Source: a virus. From it: a DNA stretch of 20,003 bases. The notes beneath the pieces are model-generated. The model saw nothing but the letters and a program-made list of their open reading frames with translations. It was not told the origin of the DNA and searched no databases. The stretch is from the IMG/VR virus record IMGVR_UViG_3300032073_007271, positions 1-20,003 of that record. One strand, given 5' to 3'. The translations under genes and the position numbers were made by a program. Positions 1 through 14,576 of this stretch are shown piece after piece (positions within the stretch are counted from its first letter, which is position 1; each line of letters begins with the position of its first letter).

Positions 1-2235
1 TCTGCAGCAGGTTCGTTAGTCTTGTATCTTTTAGGCGTAACAAATATTGACCCAATTGAATATGACTTATTTTTTGAAAGATTCGTATCTAGAAGTAGAG
101 CAAAACAAATTGAGCATGATGGTGAAGTTTTCCTTGATGGGTCTCTTCTTGCTGATGTTGATAATGATATCTCTTATAATCGCAGGAGCGAAGTTGTTAA
201 ATATATCGAAGAAAAATACAAAGGGAGAACGTCTAAGATCCTAACTCTCAATACTCTTAGTGGTAAGCTGTGCATGAAGGAATGTGGTAAGATAGTATCT
301 GAACTTAATGAGACGGACGTAAACCAAATAAGCGACAGTATTCCGAAACAGTTCGGGAAGGTGGCTAAATTAAAAGTTGCTTATGAAGAGAGTGAATCGT
401 TTAAAAAACACGCAGATAATCACCCAAAAGCTTTTAAGATAGCTAAGAAGCTAGAAGGCTTAGTGAAAAATACAGGTGTCCATCCTTCAGGGATTTCAAT
501 TTGCTATTATGAGCAATCGGATATCATGCCTCTACAAAAGACTAATGATGACTCTTTGGTTTCTGGTTACGACATGGATGACGTCGCAAGTTTAAGTGTG
601 AAATTTGATATTCTGGGTCTCAGGACTTTGTCTGTTGTTAATGATGTCTGTAATAGTCTAGGTATAGATGTAGATAATATAAACCCTCATGACCCTTTAA
701 TTTATACTGCTTTGGCTAACCTACAGAACCCACAAGGTTTATTCCAGATAGAAGCGGATACAAACTTCAAAGTCTGTCAAAGCGTTGCCCCAAGGAACCT
801 TGAGCAGCTTTCTGCTGTTGTAGCTATTGCTAGACCCGGAGCATTGGACTTCAAAGATAGGTATGCTGAATACGTTAAGACTGGAGAATCTCAGTCGGTA
901 CATGAATTTTTCGATTCTGTTTTGAACTATACAGGAGGTATCCCCCTTTATCAGGAACAGTTAATGAAGATGGCTGTCAAAGTTGGCTTTAGCTTAGATG
1001 AAGCGGAACAGCTTCGGCGTATTGTTGGAAAGAAAAAAATAGACCAAATGCCAGCTTGGAAAACTAAAATAACTGAAAAAGTAGGCCAGCTTGAAAATCC
1101 AGATCCTGCTATAGCGGATGTTTTGTGGAAGGTTGCGGAAGACTCTGCGAACTACTCATTCAACAAATCTCACTCTATTAGTTATGCATATCTAGCAGCC
1201 ATTACGGTCTATTTAAAATTCAAATATCCACAACAGTTCTTTTTAAGCCTGTTGAAGTTCACGAAGTTTGAACCAAATAGCCATGAAGAGATATCTAAAA
1301 TTTCTCAAGAGTTGATGGATTTCGATATCAAACTCCTACCTCCTGATCTAAATAAATCAGATATAGACTTCAAAATAGAAGGAAAGGATGTCAGGTATGG
1401 GTTGAACTCAATTAAAGGGGTCTCTGAGAAGGTCTTGAAGCATTTGTTGGAGTTTAGAGAGGATTCTTTTGAAAATAAGTATGATGTCTTTACGGCAGCT
1501 AAACAGGCTGGAGTTAATATAGGGGTGTTGTCAGCTTTGATTCAAGCTGGGCTTTTAGATTCATTCGTTACAGCTAACAGATCCCAGTTGGTTTTAGAAG
1601 CTCAGACTTTTAATATTCTTACAGATAGAGAGAAGAGGAACTTTAAAGCTTTAGGCAAAGAGCATAAGTATGACATATGCTGCTCTATAGACAAGGCTAT
1701 TTCAGAAGAATTAATTGGGGATGATAATAAAAGAATATTCTCAGATAGAAGGATCAATACTATAAAAAAGAAAAGAGAGCCTTATATAGAAATATTAAAG
1801 CGGAATAGAAAATCTATAAAGTACGCTAATTGGTATTTCGAAACTCAACTTCTAGGCTACAGTTATTCCTATACTATTAGGGATATATTTAAACATCCTG
1901 AAGATTACCAATGTTCTGATTCTGTAAAGATGGCTGGGGTAAGATCTGAAGTAAGATGTGTTGGTGTTTTAGTGGATATAATAAAGAGAACTAGTAGAAA
2001 TGGCAACAAATATGCTAGGTTAGAACTACATGATGAAAAAGGTATTATTAATGTCCTATTTATGGATAGTAATAGAGAGTCTCGCTTGACATCTTACTTA
2101 AATGCAGGTAATAAGTTGCCCAAGAAAGATGATGTCGTAATCATTACTGGAAGTAAAGGTGATGATATTATTTTCGCAAACACCGTTAATACTTTAAAAG
2201 ATAAAATTTACATGAAGCTTTCTCAGGTAAAATAA
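1..2235 (+). CDS. dnaE: DNA polymerase III alpha subunit (DnaE-type), 5' end outside the window
   Basis: This is the replicative C-family DNA polymerase, which extends primed DNA with dNTPs. The reading frame is open from base 1, so the N-terminal PHP domain is not visible; 744 residues remain (numbered here from the first window codon). It opens on the palm motif SAAGSLVLYLLGVTNIDP. The catalytic aspartates lie in ADVDND (about 52-56), matching PDFDVDF in E. coli DnaE, and the third in KFDILGL (D203). Further family motifs are HPSG (161), LFQIE (247), RPGAL (278), YQEQLM (317), LRRIVGKKK (338) and FNKSHS (387). An OB-fold-like region covers about 651-730. No clear clamp-binding QxxLF-type motif was recognised. 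A TTG at 22 could be mistaken for a start, but homology continues upstream of it. A DnaE enzyme rather than a family A or B polymerase is uncommon in phages. The clp-like gene follows after 12 nt. Confidence 0.95.
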   Translation, partial: SAAGSLVLYLLGVTNIDPIEYDLFFERFVSRSRAKQIEHDGEVFLDGSLLADVDNDISYNRRSEVVKYIEEKYKGRTSKILTLNTLSGKLCMKECGKIVSELNETDVNQISDSIPKQFGKVAKLKVAYEESESFKKHADNHPKAFKIAKKLEGLVKNTGVHPSGISICYYEQSDIMPLQKTNDDSLVSGYDMDDVASLSVKFDILGLRTLSVVNDVCNSLGIDVDNINPHDPLIYTALANLQNPQGLFQIEADTNFKVCQSVAPRNLEQLSAVVAIARPGALDFKDRYAEYVKTGESQSVHEFFDSVLNYTGGIPLYQEQLMKMAVKVGFSLDEAEQLRRIVGKKKIDQMPAWKTKITEKVGQLENPDPAIADVLWKVAEDSANYSFNKSHSISYAYLAAITVYLKFKYPQQFFLSLLKFTKFEPNSHEEISKISQELMDFDIKLLPPDLNKSDIDFKIEGKDVRYGLNSIKGVSEKVLKHLLEFREDSFENKYDVFTAAKQAGVNIGVLSALIQAGLLDSFVTANRSQLVLEAQTFNILTDREKRNFKALGKEHKYDICCSIDKAISEELIGDDNKRIFSDRRINTIKKKREPYIEILKRNRKSIKYANWYFETQLLGYSYSYTIRDIFKHPEDYQCSDSVKMAGVRSEVRCVGVLVDIIKRTSRNGNKYARLELHDEKGIINVLFMDSNRESRLTSYLNAGNKLPKKDDVVIITGSKGDDIIFANTVNTLKDKIYMKLSQVK

Positions 2236-2247
2236 GCGTAGTTATAT

Positions 2248-4665
2248 ATGATGTCTTTAACTGATTATAATCTTACCCCAAAAGCTAAGAAGGCTATAAG
2301 GGACGCTAAACTCTTCGCAGCTTCAAATAGTCACGAATTAATTAGAATACCTCATTTATTTTACGGGTGCTTATGCAATCTTTCTGACAGGGTAGATTTA
2401 CTATTTGAGAGCAGGGGGATCGAGTACCCGCCTAAATACTATTTAAAAGATTTTAAAAGTTTTTGTAAAGATAATAAAGACTATTTTTTAAGATCCAAAA
2501 ATGATAACGCTTGGCATTCTGAACTAAATGACATTATAGCTGATGCAAAATTGTTTGCTGATGATAACGAAGATTTCTTTGTCGGGGTTGATCATATACT
2601 TTATTGTCTTTTAGGATCACAATTTTGCAAAGGGATGCAATCTGATACTTGTGATATCTTGCATATGTCTGAAGTCCTGCTTGAATTGATTATAGACGCT
2701 AACTTAGTTATCCCTAAATCTTCTATTTTAGATCCTGAAGATCTTGACTCAGAAAGTTTTATAGAAAAGCTAGAAAGGTCTTTAGAGAGGAAGCCTTCAA
2801 AATTTTTATCTGAATATTGTTTAAATCTGAACGAACAGGTCGCACAAGAAAACCAAGTCCCTATAACATCAAGAGATGAGGAAATAGATATCTTGATTGA
2901 AGTTTTATCTAAAAAGAATAAAAGTAACGCTGTGTTATTGGGTGATTCTGGAGTGGGGAAGACTGCTGTTGTTGAAGGTTTAGCTCAAAAGATAATCAAA
3001 GATGAAGTTCCCGCTCATATTGGCGTATGCACTGTGTACAGTGTCGATATAGCCTCAATGGTCGCTGGGACTCAATATAGAGGACAGTTTGAAGAGAGGT
3101 TTAAAGGTTTATTAAAAGAGATCGAAGACCGCCCTGAAGTAATTCTATTTATTGATGAAATACATACTTTAATGGGTGCTGGGAATTCAAGCGATAACGG
3201 TATAGACGCTTCAAACATGCTAAAACCTGCTCTGGCTAGGGGGGAAGTTAAATGTATAGGGGCGACGACCTTCAAAGAATACGAAAAATCTTTTGGTAAA
3301 GACCCAGCATTAAAGAGGAGGTTTGATAAGGTTGAAGTCTTAGAGCCTACAAAAAAGCAGACTGAGGTAATGATTAAAAACAGCCTCTCATACTATGAAA
3401 ACTTTCATAAGGTTAAATATTCCAAAAGCAATATTAAAGACATTTTAGACCTTAGTGAGACCTACCTATCAAATAAAAAGTTTCCTGAGAAAGCTTTTGA
3501 TATTATTGACCAAGTTGGAGCTAAAGCTAAAATTGAGCAAGATTACCCTGACGATGAGTTGGCTTGTATTAGAGACAAGTTTTCTAAAAAAGACACAAAT
3601 TTAGAAAGTGAGGTCGAGACTGAGAAACTTATTAAAGAGTATGTTGAGGATTTGGTTTCTTACATGAATAAAGAGGATAAGAAAAGGAGGGTTTCTAGGA
3701 ATCAAATACTTGAGGTCTTTGAGAAAAAAACCGGTATACCTAAAAAAATCATTGGGGAAAGTAAAAAATCTTTTTCTAATTTCAATAAAAAAATGAAGTC
3801 TGAGATTTTTGGGCAAGATGAAGCTCTAGATAGGATTTACAGTATCCTTTCTTCCGTAAAGGTCGGCTTAAACGACCCCAATAAGCCTTTAGCTAATTTT
3901 TTGTTTGTCGGGCCAACGAGTGTAGGGAAGACGTTTACAGCAAAGAACATAGCAAAACATTTCTTTGGGAATCAGCAATCAATACTGCAAATCAATATGA
4001 GTGAGTATCAAGATAAAACTGGTATTTCTAAACTGCTTGGTGCTAATGCTGGTTATATTGGTTATGAAGAAGGGGGCGTCCTAAGTGATTTTGTTAGTAA
4101 TAACCCGAATTCTGTGGTTTTGTTCGACGAGATTGAGAAGTGTGACCCAAAGATTCTAGACTTACTATTACATCTTTTGGATGAGGGCTACATTTCTGAC
4201 AACTTAAATAGGCGTGTAGACTTCTCAAAATGTATTATCGTGATGACGACCAATATAGGGCATAAAGAAGCTTCTAAAACCTCTGTAGGTTTTGTCAGCG
4301 ATAACAACGAGCGAGACTCTTATAAAGAGAGTTTGTCTAATTACTTAAGGCCGGAGCTAATAGCTAGAATTCAAAACACCTTAATCTTTAACCCTTTAAA
4401 TGACGATATTATGGCTAATATCGTAGGGGTAGAAATAAATAAAATTAAAAGTCGTTTAGCTAGCAAAGGTATAAACTTATCTGTTCCTAGATCTATAAAG
4501 AACTTTCTTGTCAAAGAGATTAAATCTAAGAAGCTAAACGCAAGAAACATAAAGTCTTTAGTGGTGAAGCTGATACAGTTTCCTCTAGCCTCTCACATCA
4601 TGGATGGAGAAAAAAATAAAAAAATATCGTTGAAAGTGGTTGACAAAACTATAAAGATCTATTAA
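2248..4665 (+). CDS. ClpA-like AAA+ ATPase (Hsp100 unfoldase)
   Basis: This is a two-ring-domain Clp ATPase that would unfold proteins and thread them through its central pore. The N-terminal 150 residues look like the double Clp-N repeat. NBD1 has Walker A GDSGVGKT (232-239), pore loop GTQYRGQFEER (274-284) and Walker B VILFIDEIH (298-306). NBD2 has Walker A GPTSVGKT (555-562), pore loop GYIGYEEGG (602-610), Walker B VVLFDEIEK (623-631) and RPELIARI (701-708). The linker between the ATPase domains has no long ClpB-type coiled-coil M domain, so ClpA/ClpC is the nearest class. After TTNIGHKEASKTS comes VGF (680-682), at the place of the ClpP-docking IGL loop of ClpA or IGF of ClpX. No clpP gene is in the window, so the partner may be the host ClpP. 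Length (805) is close to ClpA (758). The gene starts with tandem ATGs and has no evident ribosome binding site. Confidence 0.93.
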   Translation: MMSLTDYNLTPKAKKAIRDAKLFAASNSHELIRIPHLFYGCLCNLSDRVDLLFESRGIEYPPKYYLKDFKSFCKDNKDYFLRSKNDNAWHSELNDIIADAKLFADDNEDFFVGVDHILYCLLGSQFCKGMQSDTCDILHMSEVLLELIIDANLVIPKSSILDPEDLDSESFIEKLERSLERKPSKFLSEYCLNLNEQVAQENQVPITSRDEEIDILIEVLSKKNKSNAVLLGDSGVGKTAVVEGLAQKIIKDEVPAHIGVCTVYSVDIASMVAGTQYRGQFEERFKGLLKEIEDRPEVILFIDEIHTLMGAGNSSDNGIDASNMLKPALARGEVKCIGATTFKEYEKSFGKDPALKRRFDKVEVLEPTKKQTEVMIKNSLSYYENFHKVKYSKSNIKDILDLSETYLSNKKFPEKAFDIIDQVGAKAKIEQDYPDDELACIRDKFSKKDTNLESEVETEKLIKEYVEDLVSYMNKEDKKRRVSRNQILEVFEKKTGIPKKIIGESKKSFSNFNKKMKSEIFGQDEALDRIYSILSSVKVGLNDPNKPLANFLFVGPTSVGKTFTAKNIAKHFFGNQQSILQINMSEYQDKTGISKLLGANAGYIGYEEGGVLSDFVSNNPNSVVLFDEIEKCDPKILDLLLHLLDEGYISDNLNRRVDFSKCIIVMTTNIGHKEASKTSVGFVSDNNERDSYKESLSNYLRPELIARIQNTLIFNPLNDDIMANIVGVEINKIKSRLASKGINLSVPRSIKNFLVKEIKSKKLNARNIKSLVVKLIQFPLASHIMDGEKNKKISLKVVDKTIKIY

Positions 4666-4674
4666 TATACACAT

Positions 4675-4890
4675 ATGAGTAAGTCAGTTTTAAAAGCTAT
4701 TCGTAATTCAAAAGGCCGTTTCTTTGGTCTATATACAAAGCAGGGTGAATCACTAAACGCTCAGCTCCAATCCGAAACGGATCAAACAATCGTGGTTTAT
4801 GACCGCAATTTTAATCGTACCCGGCGTTTCTCTAAAACCAGCATTTCTGGTGTACGCTCAGGTTCTCGCACTTTTGGTCGAGTTCGTTAA
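4675..4890 (+). CDS. small basic phage protein with unusual codon use
   Basis: This 71-residue, strongly basic protein has the central motif GRFFGLYTKQGESLNAQL and a C-terminal stretch rich in Arg, Ser and Gly. The layout of short beta strands suggests a small SH3/Sm-like fold, and the composition suggests nucleic-acid or virion contact; both are inferences. No function is assigned. All ten arginines use CGN codons, whereas neighbouring genes mostly use AGA/AGG, which suggests high expression or a different origin. It starts 9 nt after the Clp gene and is followed at once by a strong terminator, so it is the last gene of the left operon. Confidence 0.75.
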   Translation: MSKSVLKAIRNSKGRFFGLYTKQGESLNAQLQSETDQTIVVYDRNFNRTRRFSKTSISGVRSGSRTFGRVR

Positions 4891-4930
4891 ATTTTATTTG
4901 GTGTCATCGTTCATCGTTAAAAACATACGA

Positions 4931-4959
4931 AACCCGCCCTTTAAAAGGGGCGGGTTTTT
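4931..4959 (+). terminator. Rho-independent terminator
   Basis: A perfect 9-bp GC-rich stem, AACCCGCCC (4931-4939) with GGGCGGGTT (4948-4956), is extended by T:G and T:A pairs towards the loop and followed by a T run (4955-4959). It closes the polymerase/Clp/small-protein operon and separates it from the kinase-like gene at 4973. Confidence 0.92.
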
Positions 4960-4961
4960 AT

Positions 4962-4967
4962 TATAAT
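4962..4967 (+). promoter_or_regulatory. candidate -10 box (TATAAT) before the kinase-like gene
   Basis: A perfect TATAAT lies directly after the terminator and 5 nt before the GTG start at 4973. If used, transcription would begin at or next to the start codon, giving a leaderless message. No convincing -35 is visible, because that position falls inside the terminator hairpin. A promoter is needed here after such a strong terminator, unless read-through occurs. Confidence 0.4.
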
Positions 4968-4972
4968 CATCT

Positions 4973-6043
4973 GTGGACATTAGCTCAATATTTAGGGATA
5001 GACTGTATAATTTACCTGTTAGTAGTGATCCTACTCAAGTAGAACGGAAAATTGTATCTAGGATATTAGATTCTTGTGACACTACAATTAACGATAGTAA
5101 ACTATCTCTTCTTTATGTTGAAGAGGATTACGATTTTTATACCATAAGGGGTGATACTCACGGGTTAGATTTAAAGTTCTCTTTAGATTATGAAAGTAAA
5201 AATTTCTTAAGAGAAATAAAAAACGTAAAGAATTGTAAATCTCAATACTCCCCAAGATATGTCAAAAGCGATACTGTGAAAGTAGGAGACAAAGTTTGCT
5301 TCCTACTTTGTCAATCAGATCTATCTGAATCTTTATTTGATTATGGCAGGTCTATTTTGTCTAGTGATTTAAATTTGTTTTGTGATTGTTATGCCGATTT
5401 TGCTTCTCACTCAAACTACAGGATTCTCTACAAAACCATAGTAAAAGATTCTGTAATCAGTGCTGATATGGACCAGATATTTGATGACGATCAAAAAGGT
5501 TTTATCAAAAACAATTCGGATTATCGAAAATGTAAATTTATTATAGGTGAACTGAAATCAGAAATATTAGACCGTTTGGAAAAATTACCCAAGTTATCTA
5601 CTGGAAACATCCTTGGAGACATAACTAAGAACTCAATATTCACCTCTGGTGATAAATTTCTATTCAAAGACTTGAGATTTGCATGTAAAGGTCACTTTTA
5701 TTCAGATATAGCCAATATAGTTTTGTTTTTTGGGTTAAACCAAGCGGCTGAAAAACAACTTTTAAAAACCGTATCTCAGAAGTGTCAGGTGAATCTAAAT
5801 CAAAACTTATACGATGCTTACTATGAAGTAGAGTTAAGGAGGAGAGCTTTGTATTACCTACTACAATACCTAAAAGAGGTTTATGTTTACGAGTCAATGA
5901 GGGTAGAAACAATAATAAACATCATAGATTCTTTTTCTCAAAGCTATAAAAGGCTTTGTAAAATACCCGTCTTCAAAGAGAATAGAGACTTCATATTAAG
6001 TAATATCACAGAGCCTGTCTTTGGGGACGACATCAAACATTAG
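4973..6043 (+). CDS. APH/choline-kinase-like protein (phosphotransferase fold)
   Basis: This 356-residue protein has the marks of the aminoglycoside/choline kinase fold. An N-lobe with LKFSLDYESKNFLREIKN (67-84) resembles the beta3 lysine and alphaC glutamate region. A catalytic loop-like LGDITKNSI (214-222) matches the family pattern HGDxxxxNI. A metal-binding-like KDLRF (232-236) stands at the IDF/IDW position, followed by KGHFYSDIAN (239-248), like the usual GHPxYDLA. The His of HGD is Leu, while the catalytic Asp (216) and Asn (220) are kept, so activity is possible but not certain. The substrate is unknown. It sits just before glycosyltransferase genes, which suggests a sugar or glycoconjugate substrate. 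The GTG start is chosen because it follows the terminator and a TATAAT box; no better ATG lies near it. Confidence 0.6.
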   Translation: MDISSIFRDRLYNLPVSSDPTQVERKIVSRILDSCDTTINDSKLSLLYVEEDYDFYTIRGDTHGLDLKFSLDYESKNFLREIKNVKNCKSQYSPRYVKSDTVKVGDKVCFLLCQSDLSESLFDYGRSILSSDLNLFCDCYADFASHSNYRILYKTIVKDSVISADMDQIFDDDQKGFIKNNSDYRKCKFIIGELKSEILDRLEKLPKLSTGNILGDITKNSIFTSGDKFLFKDLRFACKGHFYSDIANIVLFFGLNQAAEKQLLKTVSQKCQVNLNQNLYDAYYEVELRRRALYYLLQYLKEVYVYESMRVETIINIIDSFSQSYKRLCKIPVFKENRDFILSNITEPVFGDDIKH

Positions 6044-6079
6044 TTGTTGAATTATAAGCCCTTTTATGTATCATCATTT

Positions 6080-6562
6080 ATGATTGTTCAGCTCTATAAA
6101 CCTAACCCCAGAAATACTGGATGCGCTTTTAGCTGCGATATTGGTAACGGTAATCAGAAAGGTGAACCTTGCGTCTATGTTAGGGCGGTTAGGCAGTTTT
6201 CTTGGGATGACAAAAAGAAGACTGGGTCTTTTTCTCAAAACGCTAAGAACCCAGAAACCTCAATTTCTATTAAGCTTAATGAAGTTGAGATAGGAGGTCT
6301 AATCCACGCTATCGAAAAATGCACGGAGTTTTCTGCATATCACTCTTATGAAGATAATAAAACCCAAATCTCTTTTAAACTCTGGGAGAGACAGGGGAGG
6401 TCTAATGCTTTTTCGTTTGGTATCATCAGGAACTCCACAAACAAGTTCGGGATAGGGGTGGAGATGTCTGAAGCTTACTGCTTACTTGAATTTTTTAGGT
6501 TCGCCTTACAGGAGATTTATGCTTTTCGCATGACCAGAAACGAAGAAATTAAATCGCGATAG
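6080..6562 (+). CDS. conserved phage protein, possibly ssDNA-binding
   Basis: This is a single-domain protein of about 160 residues starting MIVQLYKPNPRNTGCAFS. It has alternating beta-like segments, then a helix rich in aromatic residues near the end (LLEFFRFALQEIYAF). The pattern of a beta sheet with SFSQNAKNPE and ISFKLWERQG followed by a C-terminal helix recalls small ssDNA-binding (whirly/PC4-like) proteins of phages, but this rests on memory of family shape only. The ATG at 6080 is preferred because the conserved-looking part begins there. A TTG at 6044, directly after the previous stop codon, would add 12 residues and cannot be excluded. Its stop shares one base with the next start (TAGTG at 6560-6564). 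Confidence 0.65.
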   Translation: MIVQLYKPNPRNTGCAFSCDIGNGNQKGEPCVYVRAVRQFSWDDKKKTGSFSQNAKNPETSISIKLNEVEIGGLIHAIEKCTEFSAYHSYEDNKTQISFKLWERQGRSNAFSFGIIRNSTNKFGIGVEMSEAYCLLEFFRFALQEIYAFRMTRNEEIKSR

Positions 6563-8451
6563 TGAAGAAAAAAGTTCTGATTCACTCTAATTCTTGCAAA
6601 GCTTTTACAGGTTTTGGGAAGAATAAAAAGAATATCATGCGTTACCTGCATAATACAGGCAAGTATGAATTGATTGAGTTAGCTAATGGGTTGGAGTGGT
6701 CAGCTCCTCAATTATCTTTAATGCCTTGGCAAGCTGTTGGGTCTTTGCCATCAAAAGCTTCCTTATCTAGAATAGATAAGCAACGCCAGAGAGAGGAGGG
6801 TTATGGTTTCTCAGCTGTTGATAGGGCTGTAAAAGAGTTTAAGCCTGATGTGTATATTGGCATGGAGGATATATGGGCTTTTAAAGATTATCACGTTAAA
6901 CCTTGGTGGAACAAGATCAACTGTATGATTTGGACCACCTTAGATAGCCTTCCTATCCTACCTCAAGCTATTGAATACGCGCCCAAGACTAAGAATTATT
7001 ATGTTTGGGCCTCCTTTGCAGAAAAGGCTATGAATGAAATTGGTTACGACCATATAAAAACTCTTAGAGGGTCGGTAGAACATAGTAATTTCGTTAAACT
7101 TCCAGACGATAAACGCAAAAACTTACGAGAGTATCACGGTTTATCTGATGAGTTTATTATAGGTTTTGTTTTTAGAAACCAGCTTCGGAAATCTGTGCCT
7201 AATCTATTAGAAGGTTTTAAAATTTTTAAGAGTAAAAATCCGAAGTCTAAAGCTAAACTCCTTCTACACACTCATTGGTTGGAGGGGTGGGATATCAATA
7301 GACTCATTTCTGAAAAAAACTTAAGCAGGGCAGACATACTTACTACATATGTTTGTTCTAATTGTGGGACTTATTATATATCAGCTTATCAAGCTCAGAA
7401 AAAAGACTGTCGTAATTGCGGCTCTAAAGAAACTGTAAACACGACAAGCACTAAAAAAGGGGTAAGTGAAAAACAGCTCAATGAAATTTATAATCTTATG
7501 GATTTATACTGTCACCCATTTACGAGTGGTGGGCAGGAGATACCAATTCAAGAGGCTAAACTCACAGAGCTTATAACTTTAGTTACCGACTACTCATGCG
7601 GAGAAGATAACTGCACTAAAGAGAGTGGCGGCATCCCCCTTGATTGGAGTGAGTATAGGGAACCTGCAACTCAATTTATTAAAGCTTCAACCTGCGCTAA
7701 TTCAATTGCCAAAGAAATTAAAAGAGTTTATGAGATGCCCTCTTCACAAAGAAGTGAAATGGGTAAAATAGCTCGGCAATGGGTTATTGATAATTTTTCT
7801 GTTGAAGTGGTTGGTAAAAAGCTGGAAGAAATTATCGACAATATGCCAGCTGTTGATTACGATTACGAATCAAAACACAGAGACTATAACTTGAGTTATG
7901 AAGCTGAACCTTGTGCAGAGAAGGAAGACCTTATAATCAACATCTATAAAAATATTTTAGATGAAGATGTCGATAAAAATTCTGCCGCAGTTAAGCATTG
8001 GGTAGAAAAAATAAAATCAGGAGAAAAACTAGAATCCATAGTCGCTAAGTTTAAAAATGTAGCTAACCAGCAGATCAAAAAACATAATGCTCCTAACTTA
8101 GAAGATTTACTCAGTAAAAAAGATAAGGGTTTTAGAATAGCTGTTATTGTCCCTCAATCCGAAGTGGATGTGCTACTGGTCAACTCCCTGATGAAAAGAT
8201 TAAAAAAGCTTTATTCAGATTATAATATTTATTTTTTTACAAAGCCGGAATACTTTGAGTTTATTGAGGACAGTCCTTATATATTTAAGATTCTAAAGTA
8301 TAGCGAAGATATTGAGAATTGTTTAGATTTGGAAGGCGTCGGAAATTCAGAAGGGGTTTTCGCAGCAGCATTCTATCCTCACGCAACTACTCAAAAAACA
8401 GTGTCCTTCACACATAATGGAATTACTAAACACGAATTTTCATTTACATAA
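6562..8451 (+). CDS. multi-domain glycosyltransferase: GT-B (GT4-like) + DUF4214-like + N-half of GT9
   Basis: Residues 1-430 form a GT-B glycosyltransferase of the GT4 type: an N-terminal Rossmann half, GFVFRNQLRKSVPNLLEGF (201-219) opening the C-terminal half, and SGGQEIPIQEAKL (322-334) at the nucleotide-sugar site, where the first Glu of the usual EX7E motif is replaced. A zinc-ribbon-like insert with C265, C268, C283 and C286 interrupts the C-terminal half. Residues 454-505 (IYKNILDEDVDKNSAAVKHW and onward) match the DUF4214 pattern. From 524 the sequence FRIAVIVPQ... with SLMKRLKKLYSDYNIYFFT resembles the N-terminal half of heptosyltransferase-like GT9 enzymes, but the protein stops at 629 before the GT9 C-terminal half, which begins in the next gene. 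Sugar donor and acceptor are unknown. The GTG start overlaps the previous stop. Confidence 0.8.
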   Translation: MKKKVLIHSNSCKAFTGFGKNKKNIMRYLHNTGKYELIELANGLEWSAPQLSLMPWQAVGSLPSKASLSRIDKQRQREEGYGFSAVDRAVKEFKPDVYIGMEDIWAFKDYHVKPWWNKINCMIWTTLDSLPILPQAIEYAPKTKNYYVWASFAEKAMNEIGYDHIKTLRGSVEHSNFVKLPDDKRKNLREYHGLSDEFIIGFVFRNQLRKSVPNLLEGFKIFKSKNPKSKAKLLLHTHWLEGWDINRLISEKNLSRADILTTYVCSNCGTYYISAYQAQKKDCRNCGSKETVNTTSTKKGVSEKQLNEIYNLMDLYCHPFTSGGQEIPIQEAKLTELITLVTDYSCGEDNCTKESGGIPLDWSEYREPATQFIKASTCANSIAKEIKRVYEMPSSQRSEMGKIARQWVIDNFSVEVVGKKLEEIIDNMPAVDYDYESKHRDYNLSYEAEPCAEKEDLIINIYKNILDEDVDKNSAAVKHWVEKIKSGEKLESIVAKFKNVANQQIKKHNAPNLEDLLSKKDKGFRIAVIVPQSEVDVLLVNSLMKRLKKLYSDYNIYFFTKPEYFEFIEDSPYIFKILKYSEDIENCLDLEGVGNSEGVFAAAFYPHATTQKTVSFTHNGITKHEFSFT

Positions 8452-9590
8452 TGTCTCACTTACTTCATGAATACTCAAAGAGTTTGGGTGTAAAGGTCTC
8501 AAAGCCGGATATCCAACAGCATTTTTTCCCATGTTTAGATGAGAAATTTATAGTATTTTTTGATGGAGAGCTAAACCAATCAAAAATTTACAAACACTAT
8601 TCTACAGTCTTCCAGTTGATAGGCGAGACATTGAAGGAGCATAATATTAAAATATACCAAATTGGAGGTGAAAAACCAATCCTTGGGGCTAATAGGCACT
8701 TAAGTTGCAGTTTAAAGAATGAAGCTTATATCGTCTCTAAAAGTATGCTTTATATCGGGCCTGATAGTTACTTATCCCAATATGCCAGCTCTCAAAATGT
8801 AAAGACTATCACTTTATATGGAAGTAATTATGCGAGCAACACGAAACCTTTTTGGGGGAGTTACAAAAATAAAGCTCTCTTAGAACCAGATTGGGATCTT
8901 AAACCGTGTTTCTCAAGCGTTGACCCGCAAAGACAAATAGATTCAATAAAACCAGAGTTAGTTTGCAAAAAAATATTAGAGTTTTGTGATTTAGGCCATT
9001 TAAATTTTAATTTTAAAACATTAAATATTGGAGACTCTTATTATCAGAAAATTGTGGAGGTTGTCCCTACTTCGATTGTAGAGGGTTTGCCAAAAAGTAT
9101 CTTTGTCCGTATAGATTACGGGGTAAAGGAAGAGCCTCTGTTGTATTATTGCGCCAAACATGAAGTGGTGTTGGTAACAGATCAACTAGTACAGGTTAAT
9201 ATGTTACTTCAGTTTAAAGACAATATAAAAAGGATCATATACACAATTCAAGATAAGGACGACACAATCCCAGAGGAATATTTTGAGGCTTTACGGAAAT
9301 TAAATATTAGTTTTATTCTTTTATCCGATAAAGAAGAGGAGTTGCCTGAATTGAGGAATAAGTATTTTGATCAGCAGGTTCACTTCAAAGATGATGATAA
9401 AGATAAATTCGATTGCCCTAAAAACGCTAAGTTTTTGACTAACAAAAAAATCGTTGAAGGTGAAAAAGTTTACACCAGTTACGCTCATTACAAAAAAGGG
9501 CTTGACTCCTGCGATAAAGTAATTGATAGTAGTGATTACTGGGAAGAATCCAAACATTTTTATATTTATGAGCAAGAAGAAAGTGGCTAA
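8451..9590 (+). CDS. GT9-like C-terminal half plus extra domain of unknown function
   Basis: Residues 1-180 look like the nucleotide-binding half of a GT9 (heptosyltransferase-type) enzyme: VFQLIGETLKEHNIKIYQIG (53-72), then YIGPDSYLSQYASSQNVKTI (101-120) with TLYGS, at the place of the usual GnDSGpxHxAaAlgvP...LFG. The start MSHLLHEYSKSLGV matches the linker that normally continues from the N-terminal half, so this gene and the preceding one together spell a full GT9 enzyme. Residues about 185-379 are an added alpha/beta region I do not recognise. The ATG shares one base with the upstream stop (TAATG, 8449-8453), giving translational coupling. A sequencing indel is the main alternative explanation of the split. 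Confidence 0.7.
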   Translation: MSHLLHEYSKSLGVKVSKPDIQQHFFPCLDEKFIVFFDGELNQSKIYKHYSTVFQLIGETLKEHNIKIYQIGGEKPILGANRHLSCSLKNEAYIVSKSMLYIGPDSYLSQYASSQNVKTITLYGSNYASNTKPFWGSYKNKALLEPDWDLKPCFSSVDPQRQIDSIKPELVCKKILEFCDLGHLNFNFKTLNIGDSYYQKIVEVVPTSIVEGLPKSIFVRIDYGVKEEPLLYYCAKHEVVLVTDQLVQVNMLLQFKDNIKRIIYTIQDKDDTIPEEYFEALRKLNISFILLSDKEEELPELRNKYFDQQVHFKDDDKDKFDCPKNAKFLTNKKIVEGEKVYTSYAHYKKGLDSCDKVIDSSDYWEESKHFYIYEQEESG

Positions 9591-10356
9591 AAAAGCTGTC
9601 AAAAAGAAGTTATTTGGACCTGATCTCTACGAAAGGGATGAATACGGCTTGTTAAAGAATGTTGATTACATTTTTAATGGAGACGGCTCGGTCAATTGGC
9701 GAGCTATGATTAAGCCTGAGTTCCTTTACCCAAACCGCGATTGGTTTAACTATAGAAACAAGCCAATGCCTGATTCTTCTGAGGGTTTAGCTGATAATCA
9801 ACTTCTGATCATGCTTGGGGGCATCAAAGAGCTTGCCCGACTTAGAGGTTTTGAAAGCGTTTCCTTTAAAACCGAAAGCTTATCAGAGACTTATGTTATA
9901 GCCTCTTGTGAGATTATTTGGTCGCCTAACTATGAGAGCGGAAAAGAACGTGTGACTTATCAAGACGTAGCTAATGCTACTTTAGATAATACAGACTCAT
10001 TCGCTTCTAAGTTCCTAGAGACAATAGCTTGCAACAGGGCTTTTGTTCGTTGCGTTAGAAACTTTTTGAATATTCATATCGTAGGAGCTGATGAGATAGA
10101 CAAGTCTAAAGGGGCAAACAATAGCGTCTCTGTAGAGTCTGTCGAGGCTGCAGCTACAACACCTATTGGCCTCCTACAAAAGAGCCTCTTATCTAAGAAG
10201 AGCGTATCCTCATTTGAGGACTTTTTAGAATTGCTTAGGAGGATGTATAAAGAGGAGGTCTACAACTACGATGTAGAAGCTATAAAGACTTGGAAGTCTT
10301 GGAAAGACATTCCGACTAAAGAAGTTCGCAAATTGATTGCTCTTGTCCATAAATGA
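9568..10356 (+). CDS. conserved phage protein, possible ssDNA-annealing (Rad52/Sak-like) protein
   Basis: This 262-residue protein has a Lys-rich start (SKKKVAKKAVKKK). The core is RDWFNYRNKPMPDSSEGL, then ADNQLLIMLGGIKELARLRG, beta strands with VIASCEIIWSPNYES, and the helix KFLETIACNRAFVRCVRNFL (about 148-167). A strand block followed by an E-A-N-R-A-F-V-R-x-V-R helix resembles Rad52/DdrA/Sak-type annealing proteins, where a similar (A)ETRAxxRAxR helix occurs. This is a resemblance of pattern and not a firm assignment. The ATG at 9568 is preferred over an ATG at 9523, since the extra residues would be hydrophobic filler overlapping the previous gene by 68 nt. With 9568 the overlap is 23 nt. 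It is coupled to the GNAT gene by ATGA. Confidence 0.7.
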   Translation: MSKKKVAKKAVKKKLFGPDLYERDEYGLLKNVDYIFNGDGSVNWRAMIKPEFLYPNRDWFNYRNKPMPDSSEGLADNQLLIMLGGIKELARLRGFESVSFKTESLSETYVIASCEIIWSPNYESGKERVTYQDVANATLDNTDSFASKFLETIACNRAFVRCVRNFLNIHIVGADEIDKSKGANNSVSVESVEAAATTPIGLLQKSLLSKKSVSSFEDFLELLRRMYKEEVYNYDVEAIKTWKSWKDIPTKEVRKLIALVHK

Positions 10357-10814
10357 TCAAAAGAATAATTAGCAGACAACACTTCAATAAAGCTGTAGAT
10401 GATATTACTGAATACCTACAGCTTAACGAAGAGTCTAATAACTATTATCATCTTTTGCCAAATAACGTAGATACGTTAAAAAAAGCTTTTGGACATGATA
10501 AAATGTTGACTTACAATGTGTTTGTCTGGGCTAATCTAAATGACCAGCAAAAATATGATGCAGGTATCATTTTTCTCAAAGACACTAGTCCTAAACATGG
10601 AGTGGAAGTTTTTTCTGAATATATTTGGTTATCAGCTAACCCCAAGGTTGGCTACAAGCTGTTTGCGACCGCAATAAAATTCGCAAGAAATAACGGCTTT
10701 GAGAATATATCTATGGGCATCTCAGAAAAATCCCCTAAAAAAGATAAAGTAAAAAGCCTTTATAAAAGATTAGGTTTCATAAAGGTTTCAGAAAGTTACA
10801 TAGCAAAATTATGA
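10353..10814 (+). CDS. GNAT-family N-acetyltransferase
   Basis: This 153-residue protein has a GNAT-like C-terminal half: a beta strand (FSEYIWLSANPKVG), a long helix with KLFATAIKFARNNGFENIS, and the closing motif SLYKRLGFIKVSESYIAKL, typical of acetyltransferases that end in LYxxLGF. The pyrophosphate-binding (R/Q)xxGxG/A loop is weak (NPKVGYKLF), so acyl-CoA use is likely but not sure. The substrate is unknown. It may modify a sugar or protein made by the glycosyltransferase locus just upstream. The start codon overlaps the previous stop (ATGA, 10353-10356), so the two genes are probably translated together. Confidence 0.65.
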   Translation: MIKRIISRQHFNKAVDDITEYLQLNEESNNYYHLLPNNVDTLKKAFGHDKMLTYNVFVWANLNDQQKYDAGIIFLKDTSPKHGVEVFSEYIWLSANPKVGYKLFATAIKFARNNGFENISMGISEKSPKKDKVKSLYKRLGFIKVSESYIAKL

Positions 10815-10972
10815 GTGGAAAGACTTGCAAAAAAATAAGAAAAGCGTTACTATTAATTAATGAAGACCCGACATCCAGAAGGAATTATAGAAGATTCAAA
10901 CGTCAATATCAGAGAATCTCATCCAAAAATAAATCAGACTTCCTTAGAGCAACAGGAGAACTCTTCAAGTGA
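10811..10972 (+). CDS. tiny Arg/Lys-rich protein overlapping the next gene
   Basis: This 53-residue frame starts at an ATG that overlaps the GNAT stop (ATGA, 10811-10814), the same coupling as elsewhere in the operon. The protein begins MSGKTCKKIRKALLLINEDP and has about a third basic residues, with SRRNYRRFKRQYQR in the middle. It looks like the small helical basic proteins common in tailed phages. It overlaps the first 113 nt of the gene at 10860 in another frame. No function is assigned; nucleic-acid binding is a guess from charge. Confidence 0.45.
   Translation: MSGKTCKKIRKALLLINEDPTSRRNYRRFKRQYQRISSKNKSDFLRATGELFK
10825..10853 (+). promoter_or_regulatory. candidate sigma70-type promoter
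   Basis: TTGCAA (10825-10830), a 17-nt spacer and TACTAT (10848-10853) lie 6 nt before the ATG at 10860. The spacing is ideal for a -35/-10 pair. Predicted initiation would fall at about the start codon, so the message would be leaderless. The site lies inside the small overlapping frame 10811-10972. Confidence 0.45.
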
Positions 10973-11327
10973 ATGGAGTAACAAGAGAATTGGTGGTTTT
11001 TGGATCAAAAAGGATATCTCGGGAAATAAGTATTTATCCGGTTTAATCGCGTTTGAAGAAGGTAAACCTGAATGTTTTCATATTTTCAACAATCGTTTAG
11101 AAGGTAAGAGGTTACCTGATAAGGTTTGTTATCGAATTTTTGGGGACTCACAAAGAGACGAAGTCGGGGCTTTCTGGCTCAAGACAAATCAAAAAGGTAG
11201 CAAGTATTTATCCGGGGTGATTCGTAGACCTAACGGAGAGAAGAGAAGCCTTCATATTTATAAGAATGACTTTAAACAGGGCGATCAGCCTCTATATAAT
11301 TGTTTTTGTTTTGGCTCTCCTCTCTAA
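10860..11327 (+). CDS. two-repeat phage protein of unknown function
   Basis: This 155-residue protein holds a duplicated unit. Copy 1 starts IGGFWIKKDISGNKYLSG (about 45-62) and copy 2 starts VGAFWLKTNQKGSKYLSG (about 102-119). Each is followed by strands ending in a HIF/HIY motif and a short basic segment. Single copies of G(A)xWxKxSxxGxxYLSG proteins are common small phage genes, and the pattern also recalls DUF736. The first 40 residues are polar and probably disordered. Only the ATG at 10860 can serve as start in this frame. Its last 56 nt overlap tail-to-tail with the leftward gene 11272-11616. Function unknown. Confidence 0.75.
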   Translation: MKTRHPEGIIEDSNVNIRESHPKINQTSLEQQENSSSEWSNKRIGGFWIKKDISGNKYLSGLIAFEEGKPECFHIFNNRLEGKRLPDKVCYRIFGDSQRDEVGAFWLKTNQKGSKYLSGVIRRPNGEKRSLHIYKNDFKQGDQPLYNCFCFGSPL

Positions 11328-11616
11328 GCCTCTGGTTTTCTTCCCTCAAGAATTTAATCTCAACTTTTAATTCTGTTACTTGGACAGTCAATTCACTTAT
11401 TTGAACTCTCATAGCCTCCTTTTCTTCAGAGGAGCTAATTAGCAAAGCTTCTAGCTTGCTCACTCTATCAATTAGGTTACTAAGCAGGACTCCTTCTGTT
11501 TGGTAATCTAATTTTTTTATTTGGTGTTCGGCTTTAAGTCTTTTGCCCATATAATTCCATAAAGCCCCGCCAAATACCGCTGATATTATTGACGAGACTA
11601 TTGTCCAATGATCCAT
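11272..11616 (-). CDS. one-TM coiled-coil membrane protein
   Basis: This 114-residue leftward protein has an N-terminal hydrophobic segment (WTIVSSIISAVFGGALWNYM, about 4-23), then basic residues, then a heptad-like coiled coil rich in Glu and Leu (about 45-100). The topology suggests an inner-membrane anchor with a long helical stalk, as in some holin-like or lysis-accessory proteins, but no family was recognised. The reading frame shows ordinary codon use for this genome over its whole length, and its start is preceded by the GTGTAAT element, so I take it as real despite the 56-nt convergent overlap with the gene at 10860. Confidence 0.65.
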   Translation of the reverse strand: MDHWTIVSSIISAVFGGALWNYMGKRLKAEHQIKKLDYQTEGVLLSNLIDRVSKLEALLISSSEEKEAMRVQISELTVQVTELKVEIKFLREENQRLREESQNKNNYIEADRPV

Positions 11617-11692: not shown

Positions 11693-12985
11693 ATGGGGGA
11701 AAGCAACAAAAATCTTGAAGAAGCTACAGCTTTTGCTTTAAAGTACTGTAATCCAGATGATAGCGATATCATTTCTGACTTAGACAGGCATACAAGAGAG
11801 ACCGCTTGGGCTTTATTAAAAAGAATTGAGCATTTAGAGAATCAGTCTTGTGTTTGTGAAGAGTGTGGTAGTGAAGTTGAAGAAGAAATTGTTGAAGAAG
11901 AGTTCTCTCAGGAAGAAGTTGGAGAAGAAGATGTAAAAGTCGAGAAGGGCAAAAACCGGGAAGTCAAATCTGAAACTCCTGAGACTTCCACTATGGATAA
12001 GCTCAGTGAGATAGCTGAAAAAAATAAAGACATCTTAGATAAAGCTGCAAAAGGTACTGCTGCTGCTGCCGCCGCTGGAGCAACAACTCAAACAGCAAGT
12101 GCCGCTACTGGTTTAAGCGCTTTTGTACAAGAGACGGTTCAAAAAGTAGGAACAATTGGGGTTGCTGGAACTATGTCCATAGGTAGTGGAGCTTACTTCC
12201 AAGCCAAAACAACAAAAGAAAAAGGCACTGAAATAGCTGTTGTGGCAGAACAGGAACATAAAGTGTTCTCTAATTTAAATGATTTTACTGAGACGACAAT
12301 TGGGTTTCAGCCTTTTGGTGGCGTTACCGAGGCGATTGTAGAATATGCCGAAAAAGGTTATGGAGATGTCATTGGTACATCTGAAGAAGGTTACGAAGGG
12401 GGAGAAGAAGGAGAAGATGAAGGGTCTGTTGGTGAAGAGGGGGAAGGCGAAGCGTCTGACGAGGCCGAAGGAAATGAGGGTGAGCCTACAGAAGAAAATA
12501 ATGAAGAAGGCGAAGGAGAAGCTGTTAAAGAGGAGGATTCTGTAGAAACTGAAGAGGAAACTGAAGAGGAAACTGAAGAAGAAACAGAAGAATCCGAAGA
12601 GGAGTCTGAAGAGGAGTCTGGAGAAGAGCAAGAAGAAGAGGGATCGGAAGAAGAGTCCGAAGAAGAAGAGTCCGAAGAAGAAGAGTCCGAAGAAGAAGGG
12701 GAAGAAGAAGAGGAGTCCGAAGAAGAAGAGGAGTCCGAAGAAGAAGAGGAGGAATCTGAAGAGGAAGAAGAGGAAGAAGAAGAACAGGAACAAGAGGGGG
12801 AAGAGGAAGAGCAAGAAGAAGTGGAGGAAGAATCTGAAGAAGGTGAGCCTGAAGAACAGTCTGAAGAGGGTGAAAAAGAAAAAACAGATATTGAGAATTC
12901 AGAAGAAACATTCGAACTAGAAGAAGATGACCAAGTCACTCAAGTCCCTGATGTGATTAAACTCCCTAACATGATAAGAAAATAG
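11693..12985 (+). CDS. extremely acidic Glu-rich repeat protein
   Basis: This is a 430-residue protein of three parts. The N-terminal 1-100 has a Cys cluster (C53, C55, C58) and an acidic linker. Residues 119-168 are rich in Ala, Gly and Thr (GTAAAAAAGATTQTASAATG and onward), moderately hydrophobic, and could be a membrane-interacting or flexible helix. Residues 231-412 are almost pure Glu with Ser and Gly, in ETEE and SEEEE repeats. A short hydrophobic-basic end (VIKLPNMIRK) follows. The acidic part must be disordered and very negatively charged; it could mimic DNA, bind cations or hold basic proteins, all of which are guesses. The opposite-strand frames here are artefacts of the repeat. The gene heads a three-gene unit. 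Confidence 0.8.
   Translation: MGESNKNLEEATAFALKYCNPDDSDIISDLDRHTRETAWALLKRIEHLENQSCVCEECGSEVEEEIVEEEFSQEEVGEEDVKVEKGKNREVKSETPETSTMDKLSEIAEKNKDILDKAAKGTAAAAAAGATTQTASAATGLSAFVQETVQKVGTIGVAGTMSIGSGAYFQAKTTKEKGTEIAVVAEQEHKVFSNLNDFTETTIGFQPFGGVTEAIVEYAEKGYGDVIGTSEEGYEGGEEGEDEGSVGEEGEGEASDEAEGNEGEPTEENNEEGEGEAVKEEDSVETEEETEEETEEETEESEEESEEESGEEQEEEGSEEESEEEESEEEESEEEGEEEEESEEEEESEEEEEESEEEEEEEEEQEQEGEEEEQEEVEEESEEGEPEEQSEEGEKEKTDIENSEETFELEEDDQVTQVPDVIKLPNMIRK
12383..12928 (+). repeat. GAA/GAG-rich coding microsatellite region
   Basis: The coding strand here is almost all purine. Clear tandem units are a 12-bp unit encoding TEEE (from 12548, three copies) and a 15-bp unit encoding SEEEE (tccgaagaagaagag, starting at 12656, 12671 and 12686, then degenerate copies at 12716 and 12734). 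Such tracts expand and shrink by slippage, so the length probably varies between isolates or even assemblies. Confidence 0.85.
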
Positions 12986-12990
12986 TTATT

Positions 12991-13182
12991 ATGGAAGATT
13001 TATTTGAAAAAATACTTGCTCCTTACATGGGGTCAATGCCTGAGTTTATTATTTCTATCTTGGGTTTATTGGGGACGCTTTCTTATATTGTACCTGAAGA
13101 TAGTAAGCTGGGTAGGTTGTTGGGTAAGTTGACGGGGAATCTAACTAAACTTAAAAACTTTATACTAAAAAAGAAGAAATGA
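12991..13182 (+). CDS. small one-TM protein with basic tail
   Basis: This 63-residue protein has one hydrophobic segment (PEFIISILGLLGTLSYIV, about 17-34), then PEDSKLGRLLGKL and a Lys-rich end (LKKKK). The shape (one TM and a basic cytoplasmic tail) fits small phage membrane proteins, including some holins, but no family was recognised. It begins 5 nt after the Glu-rich gene and its stop overlaps the next start (ATGA, 13179-13182), so it is co-expressed with the secreted PEP-CTERM-like protein and could help its delivery or act as a holin. Confidence 0.7.
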   Translation: MEDLFEKILAPYMGSMPEFIISILGLLGTLSYIVPEDSKLGRLLGKLTGNLTKLKNFILKKKK

Positions 13183-14009
13183 AGCGCACACTCATAACTT
13201 TACTCTCAATTATTTCCGTAGCTAAATCTGCTGTTATAATCTCTACAGGAGGTATAATACGTAAAATAGACCCAACAGGGAACCCCACTATTAACCCTGT
13301 AATTAATCCTATAAGACCTACCTCGATTAGTAGTGAGGAAGTCGTAGAGACATCCGAGAGCGAAGATAAAAAGGAAGATTCAATTATTTCTTGGGACGCA
13401 GAAGAAGAGGATATCTATGATTTTTATGATGCTCCGAATTGGGATTTTTCAGAATCGGACTTGAAAGAGTTGGATCGAGATTCTGCCATCATTAGCATAC
13501 TAACCATAACAGATGCTAAAATACTTGAGGATAGTCCTTCTTATTCTAATATCGAAATTGGAAATGGGTTTTCAGTTACGTTAAAATCTACGAATTTTAC
13601 TTTCCAAAACAACAATGGTTTTACTGGAGTGAAGGATGATGATGGTGTTTACTCTACTCTGAATATAACTGAAGGATCGAGTATGGACGCCATGTTTTCT
13701 GCAATCGGCCTAAAGATAAATGTAGATTCAACTAGCAGCTTGACGCTCCGAGGGGCTGGGGACTCAATAAATAGCCAAACAGAAAGGTCTATTGTCAATT
13801 TGTCTCCAAATGCCAAACTCACTTTAAATTCAGTACAGGAGTTTTCGGAACAAGGGAATGATATCTACTTAAACGGGGTGTCCTTTTCCCAAGATCCTTC
13901 TATTTTAAAGTTTAATGGTACCACGGGTACTGCAATTCCAGAGGCGCATTTTATTCTGCTTAGCTCCATATTTATAATTTTGCTTTTAAGCAAAAGGGGA
14001 GAGAGGTAA
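13179..14009 (+). CDS. secreted protein with PEP-CTERM-like sorting tail
   Basis: This 276-residue protein starts with a signal peptide: basic MKR, hydrophobic TLITLLSIISV and a cleavage-like AKSA near residue 18. An acidic stretch follows (about 50-100, with DAEEEDIYDFYDAPNWDFSE). Residues about 105-245 are rich in Ser, Thr and Asn with strands such as SSLTLRGAGDS and NAKLTLNSVQE, resembling the beta-strand repeats of autotransporter-like surface proteins. The end is a tripartite tail: IPEAHF, a hydrophobic FILLSSIFIILLL and a basic SKRGER. This matches the PEP-CTERM layout (PEP motif, TM, Arg-rich end), with Ala at the second Pro. In PEP-CTERM systems the tail is cut by exosortase and the protein is exported to the surface or exopolysaccharide. 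The target exosortase would be the host's. A plain TM anchor is the alternative. Confidence 0.75.
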   Translation: MKRTLITLLSIISVAKSAVIISTGGIIRKIDPTGNPTINPVINPIRPTSISSEEVVETSESEDKKEDSIISWDAEEEDIYDFYDAPNWDFSESDLKELDRDSAIISILTITDAKILEDSPSYSNIEIGNGFSVTLKSTNFTFQNNNGFTGVKDDDGVYSTLNITEGSSMDAMFSAIGLKINVDSTSSLTLRGAGDSINSQTERSIVNLSPNAKLTLNSVQEFSEQGNDIYLNGVSFSQDPSILKFNGTTGTAIPEAHFILLSSIFIILLLSKRGER

Positions 14010-14019
14010 ATTCCAAAAA

Positions 14020-14048
14020 AAAACGGCACCCATAACAGGTGCCGTTTT
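14020..14048. terminator. bidirectional Rho-independent terminator
   Basis: A perfect 11-bp stem, AAAACGGCACC (14020-14030) with GGTGCCGTTTT (14038-14048), has a 7-nt loop. A-rich sequence on the left and T-rich on the right make it work for both the rightward unit ending at 14009 and the leftward operon ending at 14052. For the leftward operon the U tract is the longer one. Confidence 0.93.
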
Positions 14049-14051
14049 AAA

Positions 14052-14300
14052 TTAGTCAAAGAGTTCTCTTTCTAACTTTCTGTATCGAGCGTCAGAATGC
14101 CAAACTTCATCAGTCGGAGGGGTGTATATTCCCTCTTTAGTCTGAATCGCTTGACCCGCCTTCAGTTTCAAGGAAGACGGTTGATATATGTTTAAAGTCG
14201 TCGTTTTCGGATTTGAGGCGCTTTCGCAAGAGGTCAGCGCGATCAGAGGAGTTGCTATCACCAGCAGCCCGTAATTCTTCAATTTCACTAATAAGTTCAT
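14052..14300 (-). CDS. small lipoprotein, candidate outer-membrane spanin (Rz1-like)
   Basis: This 82-residue protein begins MNLLVKLKNYGLLVIATPLI and has the lipobox LTSC, with the lipidated Cys at 25. The mature part is about 57 residues, polar, ending VWHSDARYRKLERELFD. Short lipoproteins at the end of a phage lysis operon are commonly o-spanins. Its first 55 codons lie out of frame within the gene 14137-14403, the same nested arrangement as Rz/Rz1. It lacks the high proline content of classical Rz1, so another phage lipoprotein role, such as surface exclusion, remains possible. Last gene of the leftward operon, ending 4 nt before the shared terminator. Confidence 0.7.
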   Translation of the reverse strand: MNLLVKLKNYGLLVIATPLIALTSCESASNPKTTTLNIYQPSSLKLKAGQAIQTKEGIYTPPTDEVWHSDARYRKLERELFD

Positions 14301-14403
14301 TTTTTATCTTTCTATGTTGATTTTTAATTTCAAAAAAGGCTAATTTATTCCTTAACATAAGGTATAATTCAACGCTTTTTAACACGGATTTGATTAGAGA
14401 CAT
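14137..14403 (-). CDS. coiled-coil protein overlapping the lipoprotein, candidate Rz-like partner
   Basis: This 88-residue protein begins MSLIKSVLKSVELYLMLRNK, an amphipathic or weakly hydrophobic helix, followed by a charged coiled coil with ELISEIEELRAAGDSNSSDR and ADLLRKRLKSEN. The pairing with an out-of-frame lipoprotein gene suggests an i-spanin. A classical i-spanin has a clear N-terminal TM segment; here the first 20 residues contain four charged residues, so membrane anchoring is doubtful. Start choice: the ATG at 14403 overlaps the upstream stop (TGATG) and is preferred over the GTG at 14406. Confidence 0.6.
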   Translation of the reverse strand: MSLIKSVLKSVELYLMLRNKLAFFEIKNQHRKIKNELISEIEELRAAGDSNSSDRADLLRKRLKSENDDFKHISTVFLETEGGSSDSD

Positions 14404-14576
14404 CACTTTACTTGTTTTTTACTGTTAAAGATCTCTTTCTCGTCATAGTCTTTTACACTTTTTACGGAGCCAGACACATGCTTAGCACAATTAATTGCAT
14501 CATCCTCTGAAAGGTATGATTGGTGATACTTCCCTTTTTTATCGTAGACTCGATATTTTAGTAATTCTTGGTTCAT
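14403..14576 (-). CDS. small hypothetical protein (57 aa)
   Basis: This short frame reads MNQELLKYRVYDKKGKYHQS and onward, ending NSKKQVK. Its ATG overlaps the upstream stop by one base (TAATG, 14578-14574) and its stop overlaps the next ATG (TGATG, 14405-14401), so it is tightly held in the leftward operon. That two-sided coupling is the main argument that it is real. It is small, soluble and charged, with a possible beta hairpin followed by a helix (SEDDAINCAKHV). Function unknown. Confidence 0.7.
   Translation of the reverse strand: MNQELLKYRVYDKKGKYHQSYLSEDDAINCAKHVSGSVKSVKDYDEKEIFNSKKQVK

Follow-up and report, generated by a model that had tools for sequence, protein, structure and literature searches.

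The ORF at 13179-14009 on the plus strand of the window, by which we mean the whole 20,003-base IMG/VR record analyzed here, encodes a protein of 276 amino acids, P0001, that starts MKRTLITLLSIISVAKSA and ends TAIPEAHFILLSSIFIILLLSKRGER. This ORF is real and conserved, with relatives in approximately 45 contigs in scans of IMG/VR. Its surroundings are those of a phage, as the initial annotation had recognized; genes for DnaE, a Clp-like ATPase, glycosyltransferases, minor tail protein L, a JAB-domain tail protein, and a tail assembly protein are found in the window. From its relatives, a tree, and an alignment, P0001 is best described as a Verrucomicrobiota-derived surface protein with a probable PEP-CTERM-type tail. 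We refer to it and its relatives as cargo 1.

The gene belongs to a three-gene unit. As judged by ORF reading and related loci, the unit begins in cargo-1 phages with a 430-aa protein that has a glutamate-rich second half (11693-12985, plus strand). Next comes a 63-aa single-span membrane protein with a basic C terminus (12991-13182, plus strand), which in related phages always lies directly upstream of a PEP-CTERM-tailed protein. The ATG of P0001 and the TGA of the 63-aa gene share a 4-nt overlap, which all related loci retain; the initial annotation had described the gene as translationally coupled to a small membrane gene. A terminator-like hairpin between convergent genes (14020-14048), with a T run after it on the minus strand, ends the unit; a similar hairpin, in which paired changes are visible, is found downstream of the relatives.

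Several other features of this region were observed. Within the 430-aa protein, a near-repetitive run of glutamate codons (12275-12890) encodes approximately 200 E/S-rich residues. On the minus strand, convergent with the unit, two overlapping ORFs in different frames (14052-14406) are arranged like Rz/Rz1 spanins; the inner ORF is lipoprotein-like (..LIALTSCESA..), and the outer one is conserved in a 118-kb relative. Also on the minus strand, an ORF of 114 aa (11272-11616) has an N-terminal membrane span and a coiled coil, matches PHROG 2658, "hol-like chemotaxis," with an E value of 1e-7, and is a possible holin.

P0001 itself can be divided into six parts, all on the plus strand. Its N terminus (MKRTLITLLSIISVAKSA, 13179-13232) is signal peptide-like by eye, has a predicted helix at residues 3 to 15, and shares its layout with cellular homologues. 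Alignment with cellular ORFs shows that it is followed in the phage versions by an insertion of approximately 50 residues (IDPTGNPTINPVINP.. plus an acidic ESEDKKED stretch, 13233-13391) that is absent from the cellular homologues. The conserved body (WDAEEEDIYDFYDAPNWDFS .. DPSILKFNGTTGT, 13392-13931) is homologous to cellular PEP-CTERM proteins and is predicted to be rich in beta strands; the structure model is also beta-rich overall, though poor (mean pLDDT of 55), and gave no match in a search against the PDB. The C terminus is tripartite, with an invariant AIPE motif (13932-13943) that holds the PE of the PEP motif, a 13-residue hydrophobic segment (13950-13988; predicted helix at residues 258 to 275), and a basic end, SKRGER (13989-14006), that is R/K-rich in all relatives. 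The PEAHF, hydrophobic run, and SKRGER layout noted at the outset is thus present in P0001, within an AIPEAHF-to-KRGER arrangement.

Related phages, in which the initial annotation had suggested looking for this tail, have a tail of the same layout. In every relative whose end is complete, a hydrophobic run and then a basic stretch come after AIPE. A, I, P, and E are identical in 33 of 33 sequences although their codons vary (for example, CCA/CCG/CCT and GAA/GAG), and the residue after them takes seven types (A, V, S, M, I, P, and F); the conservation of AIPE is thus more than chance. Over 253 pairs, pN/pS was 0.13 for the body and 0.45 for the tail core; for AIPE it was 0.00, with a pS of 0.61.

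The curated models give a different picture for the window's protein. When P0001 was compared to NCBIfam and Pfam, no PEP-CTERM model matched, nor did PHROGs return such a match, and it did not reach the cut-off of PF07589 or TIGR02595. The best phage relative, L047, which ends AIPEPNSFLLMSICVLLLSILRGRRN and reads PEP, also falls below (18.3 bits for PF07589, with an E value of 1e-4 for that record, and 14.7 bits in the full scan, against a cut-off of 20.7); it is matched as well by the last residues of two PEP-CTERM families, NF038129 and NF041927. The strict Pro-Glu-Pro signature reads PEA in the window; while PE is invariant in the 33 sequences, PEP is found in only 1 of them. A further HMM (the host-tail HMM) was made from 36 PEP-CTERM tails that occur in Verrucomicrobiota genomes; against it, the window tail scored 5.6 bits, compared to 2.0 for the best of 341 other phage ORF C termini; shuffled tails reached 5 bits in 71 of 5,000 cases (1.4%). 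Taken by itself, then, the window tail is weak evidence, and it is the family and its homologues that carry the case for a probable PEP-CTERM-type tail.

One could imagine that the protein was captured from a PEP-CTERM family but that its tail is now no more than a C-terminal membrane anchor, so that, at least in the AIPEAHF-type phages, the product is an inner membrane protein and not an exosortase substrate. This would fit the lack of a match between the window protein and any curated PEP-CTERM model, the PEA, PEV, PES, PEI, PEM, or PEF found instead of PEP in most cargo-1 relatives, and a tail core that evolves faster than the body. We consider it unlikely; a plain anchor would not need AIPE to be invariant, with a pN of 0.00, beside neighbors that vary, and the chromosomal and phage homologues discussed below also speak against it. 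We favor instead a tail that is still of the PEP-CTERM type. Even so, the hydrophobic segment of cargo 1 contains more Ile than the host tails and lacks their Gly/Ser pattern, and because of this, recognition by exosortase could have been lost in some phages.

Two further observations were made among the relatives. In L009, the N-terminal part differs strongly from the window's protein, while the tail is identical and the downstream sequence nearly so, which suggests that phages have recombined in the tail or close to it. A match to PF18527 (PglB C-terminal) in 13 relatives was weak and below threshold, and we rejected it.

Where did the gene come from? A tblastn search of annotated phages gave no match. 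When 84,980 species genomes were scanned using the C-terminal part of the family as the query, a single relative came up, L051, in a Verrucomicrobiota metagenome-assembled genome, with 59% identity over the C-terminal part; a scan of this type with the whole phage family found none, its patterns having fallen in the phage-specific acidic part. L051 is encoded by a chromosomal gene that adjoins dnaK, groES, and groEL, is 229 to 236 aa long depending on the start codon, and ends AAVPEPSSSLLAALGLLGLTIRRRK. It scores 30.1 bits with PF07589 (cut-off, 20.7) and is above the cut-off of TIGR02595. Homologues are found in 21 of 260 genomes of the L051 family, nearly all with clear PEP-CTERM tails, and P0001 is homologous over its full length to such proteins with canonical tails. 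DNA-level matches of the window to the chromosomal gene were also found among these 260 genomes.

The proteins closest to those of the phages, with 55 to 58% identity over approximately 200 residues, are in G594, G597, G587, and G582 (L106 to L109) and end VPELSSSLF..LALLGRRRK. In the four genomes checked for placement (that of L051 plus G597, G582, and G587), the gene is at the same dnaK-groES-groEL locus, and in the last three the flanking genes are 65 to 95% identical to those of L051. Tails of the chromosomal orthologues read VPEPSSSLL..RRRK or VPELSSSLF..RRRK, with PEP in L051 and PEL in L243 to L245. Because orthologues at the groEL locus end in VPEL, normal chromosomal members, too, can have a PE tail that lacks the second proline; the use of PEL by host orthologues is a further point against reading the phage tail as a plain anchor. 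In a midpoint-rooted tree computed from 47 proteins, the 19 phage rows make up a single clade (100/100), nested in a group with 100/98 support that includes seven cellular proteins and whose internal branching is unresolved. These comparisons indicate that the P0001 gene descends from a chromosomal Verrucomicrobiota PEP-CTERM surface protein.

The initial annotation had predicted a host lineage with exosortase, and this agrees with what was found. Exosortase (PF09721) scored above its cut-off in 21 of 21 genomes with a homologue; of 14 control genomes, just one or two had it. It had also been argued that two results together, no match to any PEP-CTERM model and a host lineage without exosortase, would leave only an ordinary membrane anchor; the first holds for this sequence, and the second probably does not. 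No exosortase was found in the phage contigs tested, and thus the idea of an exosortase route rests on the host.

In a search of the 260 family genomes, the window DNA matched a 31-kb contig of G599 with 65 to 70% identity over window positions 34-10900. G599 is a Verrucomicrobiota genome bin of the same family as L051 and carries exosortase. The contig comes from a related phage; it shares the replication and glycosyltransferase genes of the window but lacks the PEP-CTERM unit. Many other matches between the window and these genomes were low-complexity matches to the glutamate-rich gene, and no CRISPR spacer match to the window was identified in the 260 genomes. Judged indirectly, from the shared homologous gene and the related phage contig binned in G599, a Verrucomicrobiota host for the window's contig seems likely. 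As a separate observation, DnaE in the G599 contig (L233, G599:C260, 12767-15751, minus strand) is encoded by two neighboring ORFs that resemble split-intein halves, with the N half beginning CMSLDTLVEG.. after SANYSFNK and the C half ending HNFYAEGLVTSN before SHSISYAY; at this site, the window's DnaE is uninterrupted.

Searches with the 63-aa protein uncovered phages in which the next gene is not related to P0001. These proteins, cargo 2, are 238 to 251 aa long and end, for example, AAAPELSSSLFGGLGCLLLLQRRRRY, AVPESGSILFAGLGALMLLRRRR, or PIPELSSSLLGGLGLLLLLQRKRR; their bodies have no significant similarity to P0001. Over residues ~90 to 243, cargo 2 aligns with the PEP-CTERM family NF038120 (QFxxD) to the end of the model, with scores of 14.4 to 26 bits in seven proteins, far below the 80-bit cut-off; cargo 1 is unrelated to that family in its body. 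Cellular homologues of cargo 2 in the L051 family match only in the last ~45 to 70 residues. The glutamate-rich upstream gene is present in cargo-1 phages and in L201, a cargo-2 locus; in the remaining cargo-2 loci, we saw no such gene upstream.

In 38 of 38 complete loci (29 with cargo 1 and 9 with cargo 2), a protein with a PE-hydrophobic-basic tail follows the 63-aa gene directly, with the 4-nt overlap. With the host-tail HMM, cargo-2 tails score 20.7 to 33.2 bits, except for that of L201, at 4.5. L201 combines a cargo-2 body with a tail that is most similar to those of cargo 1 (17 of 24 residues identical to L036, as against at most 10 of 24 for the cargo-2 tails compared), and thus the tail behaves as a separate module. 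The strong tails kept by cargo-2 phages in the same slot and the hybrid in L201 also speak against a plain anchor. The phage gene slot, as we read these loci, keeps a putative sorting tail while the cargo changes, and this exchange is our strongest evidence that the tail, and not the body alone, is selected for in the slot.

Thus, the central claim of the initial annotation, that the product is a PEP-CTERM-like exosortase substrate, stands in part. The PEP-CTERM-type tail, the Verrucomicrobiota PEP-CTERM descent, and a sister-phage cargo with a stronger tail agree with it; the strict motif, PEA instead of PEP, and the lack of a curated model match do not. For these last two reasons, we do not file P0001 as a member of the PEP-CTERM family; we class it as a protein derived from that family that probably works like a member.

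How might such a protein act? We imagine that P0001, made from a conserved unit with the 63-aa membrane protein, would be exported by Sec via its putative signal peptide and parked in the inner membrane by its C-terminal helix. Host exosortase would then recognize the PE of the PE-hydrophobic-basic tail. It would remove the tail and pass the protein to the outer surface or the exopolysaccharide layer, as proposed for host PEP-CTERM proteins (PMC1569441). On balance, we think it likely that P0001 is a host-derived surface protein that is exported via the host exosortase, loses its tail, and alters the surface of the infected cell late in infection. The gene, its conservation and origin, the constraint on its tail, the exchange of cargo, and exosortase in the source lineage are shown by the comparisons above. 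Exosortase cleavage itself is little characterized; we infer how P0001 is processed, that it reaches the surface, which host this contig infects, when the protein acts, and to what end. Candidate purposes include superinfection exclusion, which the initial annotation had proposed along with receptor masking and particle release, a block to re-adsorption, and an exosortase decoy; the likeliest use would be a late surface change that excludes further phages or stops progeny from re-adsorbing. The model of cargo 2 has a weak resemblance to carbohydrate-binding jelly rolls (E of about 0.01), and this likeness, together with the beta-rich model of cargo 1, would suit a surface or polysaccharide-binding role, without being proof of it.

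The decoy idea can be extended to lysis. A good substrate, overproduced late in infection, could occupy the host exosortase or disturb PEP-CTERM/exopolysaccharide assembly, loosening the envelope before lysis, with the displayed domain of minor importance. The holin-like 63-aa membrane protein of the unit, the adjoining convergent spanin-like pair, and cargo that is exchangeable while the tail stays would all fit, yet the lysis roles of these neighbors are read from layout alone. Moreover, the cargo-1 body is under strong purifying selection, with its pN/pS of 0.13, and thus the displayed domain appears to matter; we regard this scenario as doubtful. We give still less credence to P0001 being a virion component, attached to particles at release and binding host or particle surfaces. 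Its gene is upstream of tail-tip genes in the window, and in the 118-kb relative it adjoins a cluster of long late genes; however, a signal peptide and a C-terminal membrane tail are unusual for virion proteins of tailed phages, and the cargo families are families of host surface proteins.

The 118-kb relative (L091 to L096) encodes a GDP-mannose 4,6-dehydratase, a pfkB-family kinase, and other sugar genes, along with RecA/RuvB-like proteins and an amidase; its surface-glycan genes also include a HAD phosphatase and epimerases by sequence. These sugar genes and the PEP-CTERM protein together suggest a wider remodeling of the surface. No integrase was recognized among the ten proteins scanned from this relative or in its ORF list, and thus a lytic life seems likely. 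Probably, this is a group of aquatic phages that redecorates the host surface during infection by means of host-derived tailed proteins in a fixed slot. We lean, by a little, toward the fuller proposal that probably lytic phages keep a dedicated slot in which exchangeable host-derived surface domains are presented via host exosortase, to exclude competitors or protect progeny.

PEP-CTERM/exosortase (EpsH, PF09721) protein sorting is known from bacteria (Haft et al. 2006, PMC1569441). P0001 resembles its substrates in a signal peptide-like start and a C-terminal PE motif, hydrophobic helix, and basic end, and it has homologous full-length host proteins with canonical tails and a source lineage with exosortase. 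It differs in being encoded by a phage, in a conserved multigene unit with a membrane protein, and in a tail that in phages conserves PE and has mostly lost the second P; in the window, the tail falls below curated model detection. The T5 lipoprotein Llp provides superinfection exclusion by blocking FhuA (PMC9586334). There, too, a phage sends its own protein via a host export route to the host envelope, although Llp is a lipoprotein and not an exosortase substrate, and the analogy would extend to purpose only. SasX of staphylococci is of prophage origin and, like P0001, would be a phage-borne surface protein with a host sortase-type C-terminal tag. It is an LPXTG surface protein (e.g., PMC7285666), a lysogenic-conversion gene product that uses Gram-positive sortase, whereas here we propose exosortase and a conserved slot of a phage group. 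The initial annotation knew of no such phage function, and our search of open-access papers for PEP-CTERM proteins with phage, prophage, virus, or auxiliary metabolic genes found no report of one encoded by a phage. Thus, the pathway is known, while it appears to be new that phages use it, and do so with cargo that can be exchanged in a fixed slot.

If this is correct, the exosortase pathway, for which both substrates and purpose are still poorly understood, is also used by phages, which would thereby have an exosortase-dependent equivalent of their surface proteins based on sortase or lipoprotein routes. The slot provides a natural set of about 40 tails, on two cargos, in which PE is kept and the second P is free to vary; the rule by which an exosortase recognizes its substrates may be read from this set. 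It also offers a means of linking such phages to hosts that carry exosortase and a candidate function in superinfection exclusion or surface remodeling for phages of Verrucomicrobiota.
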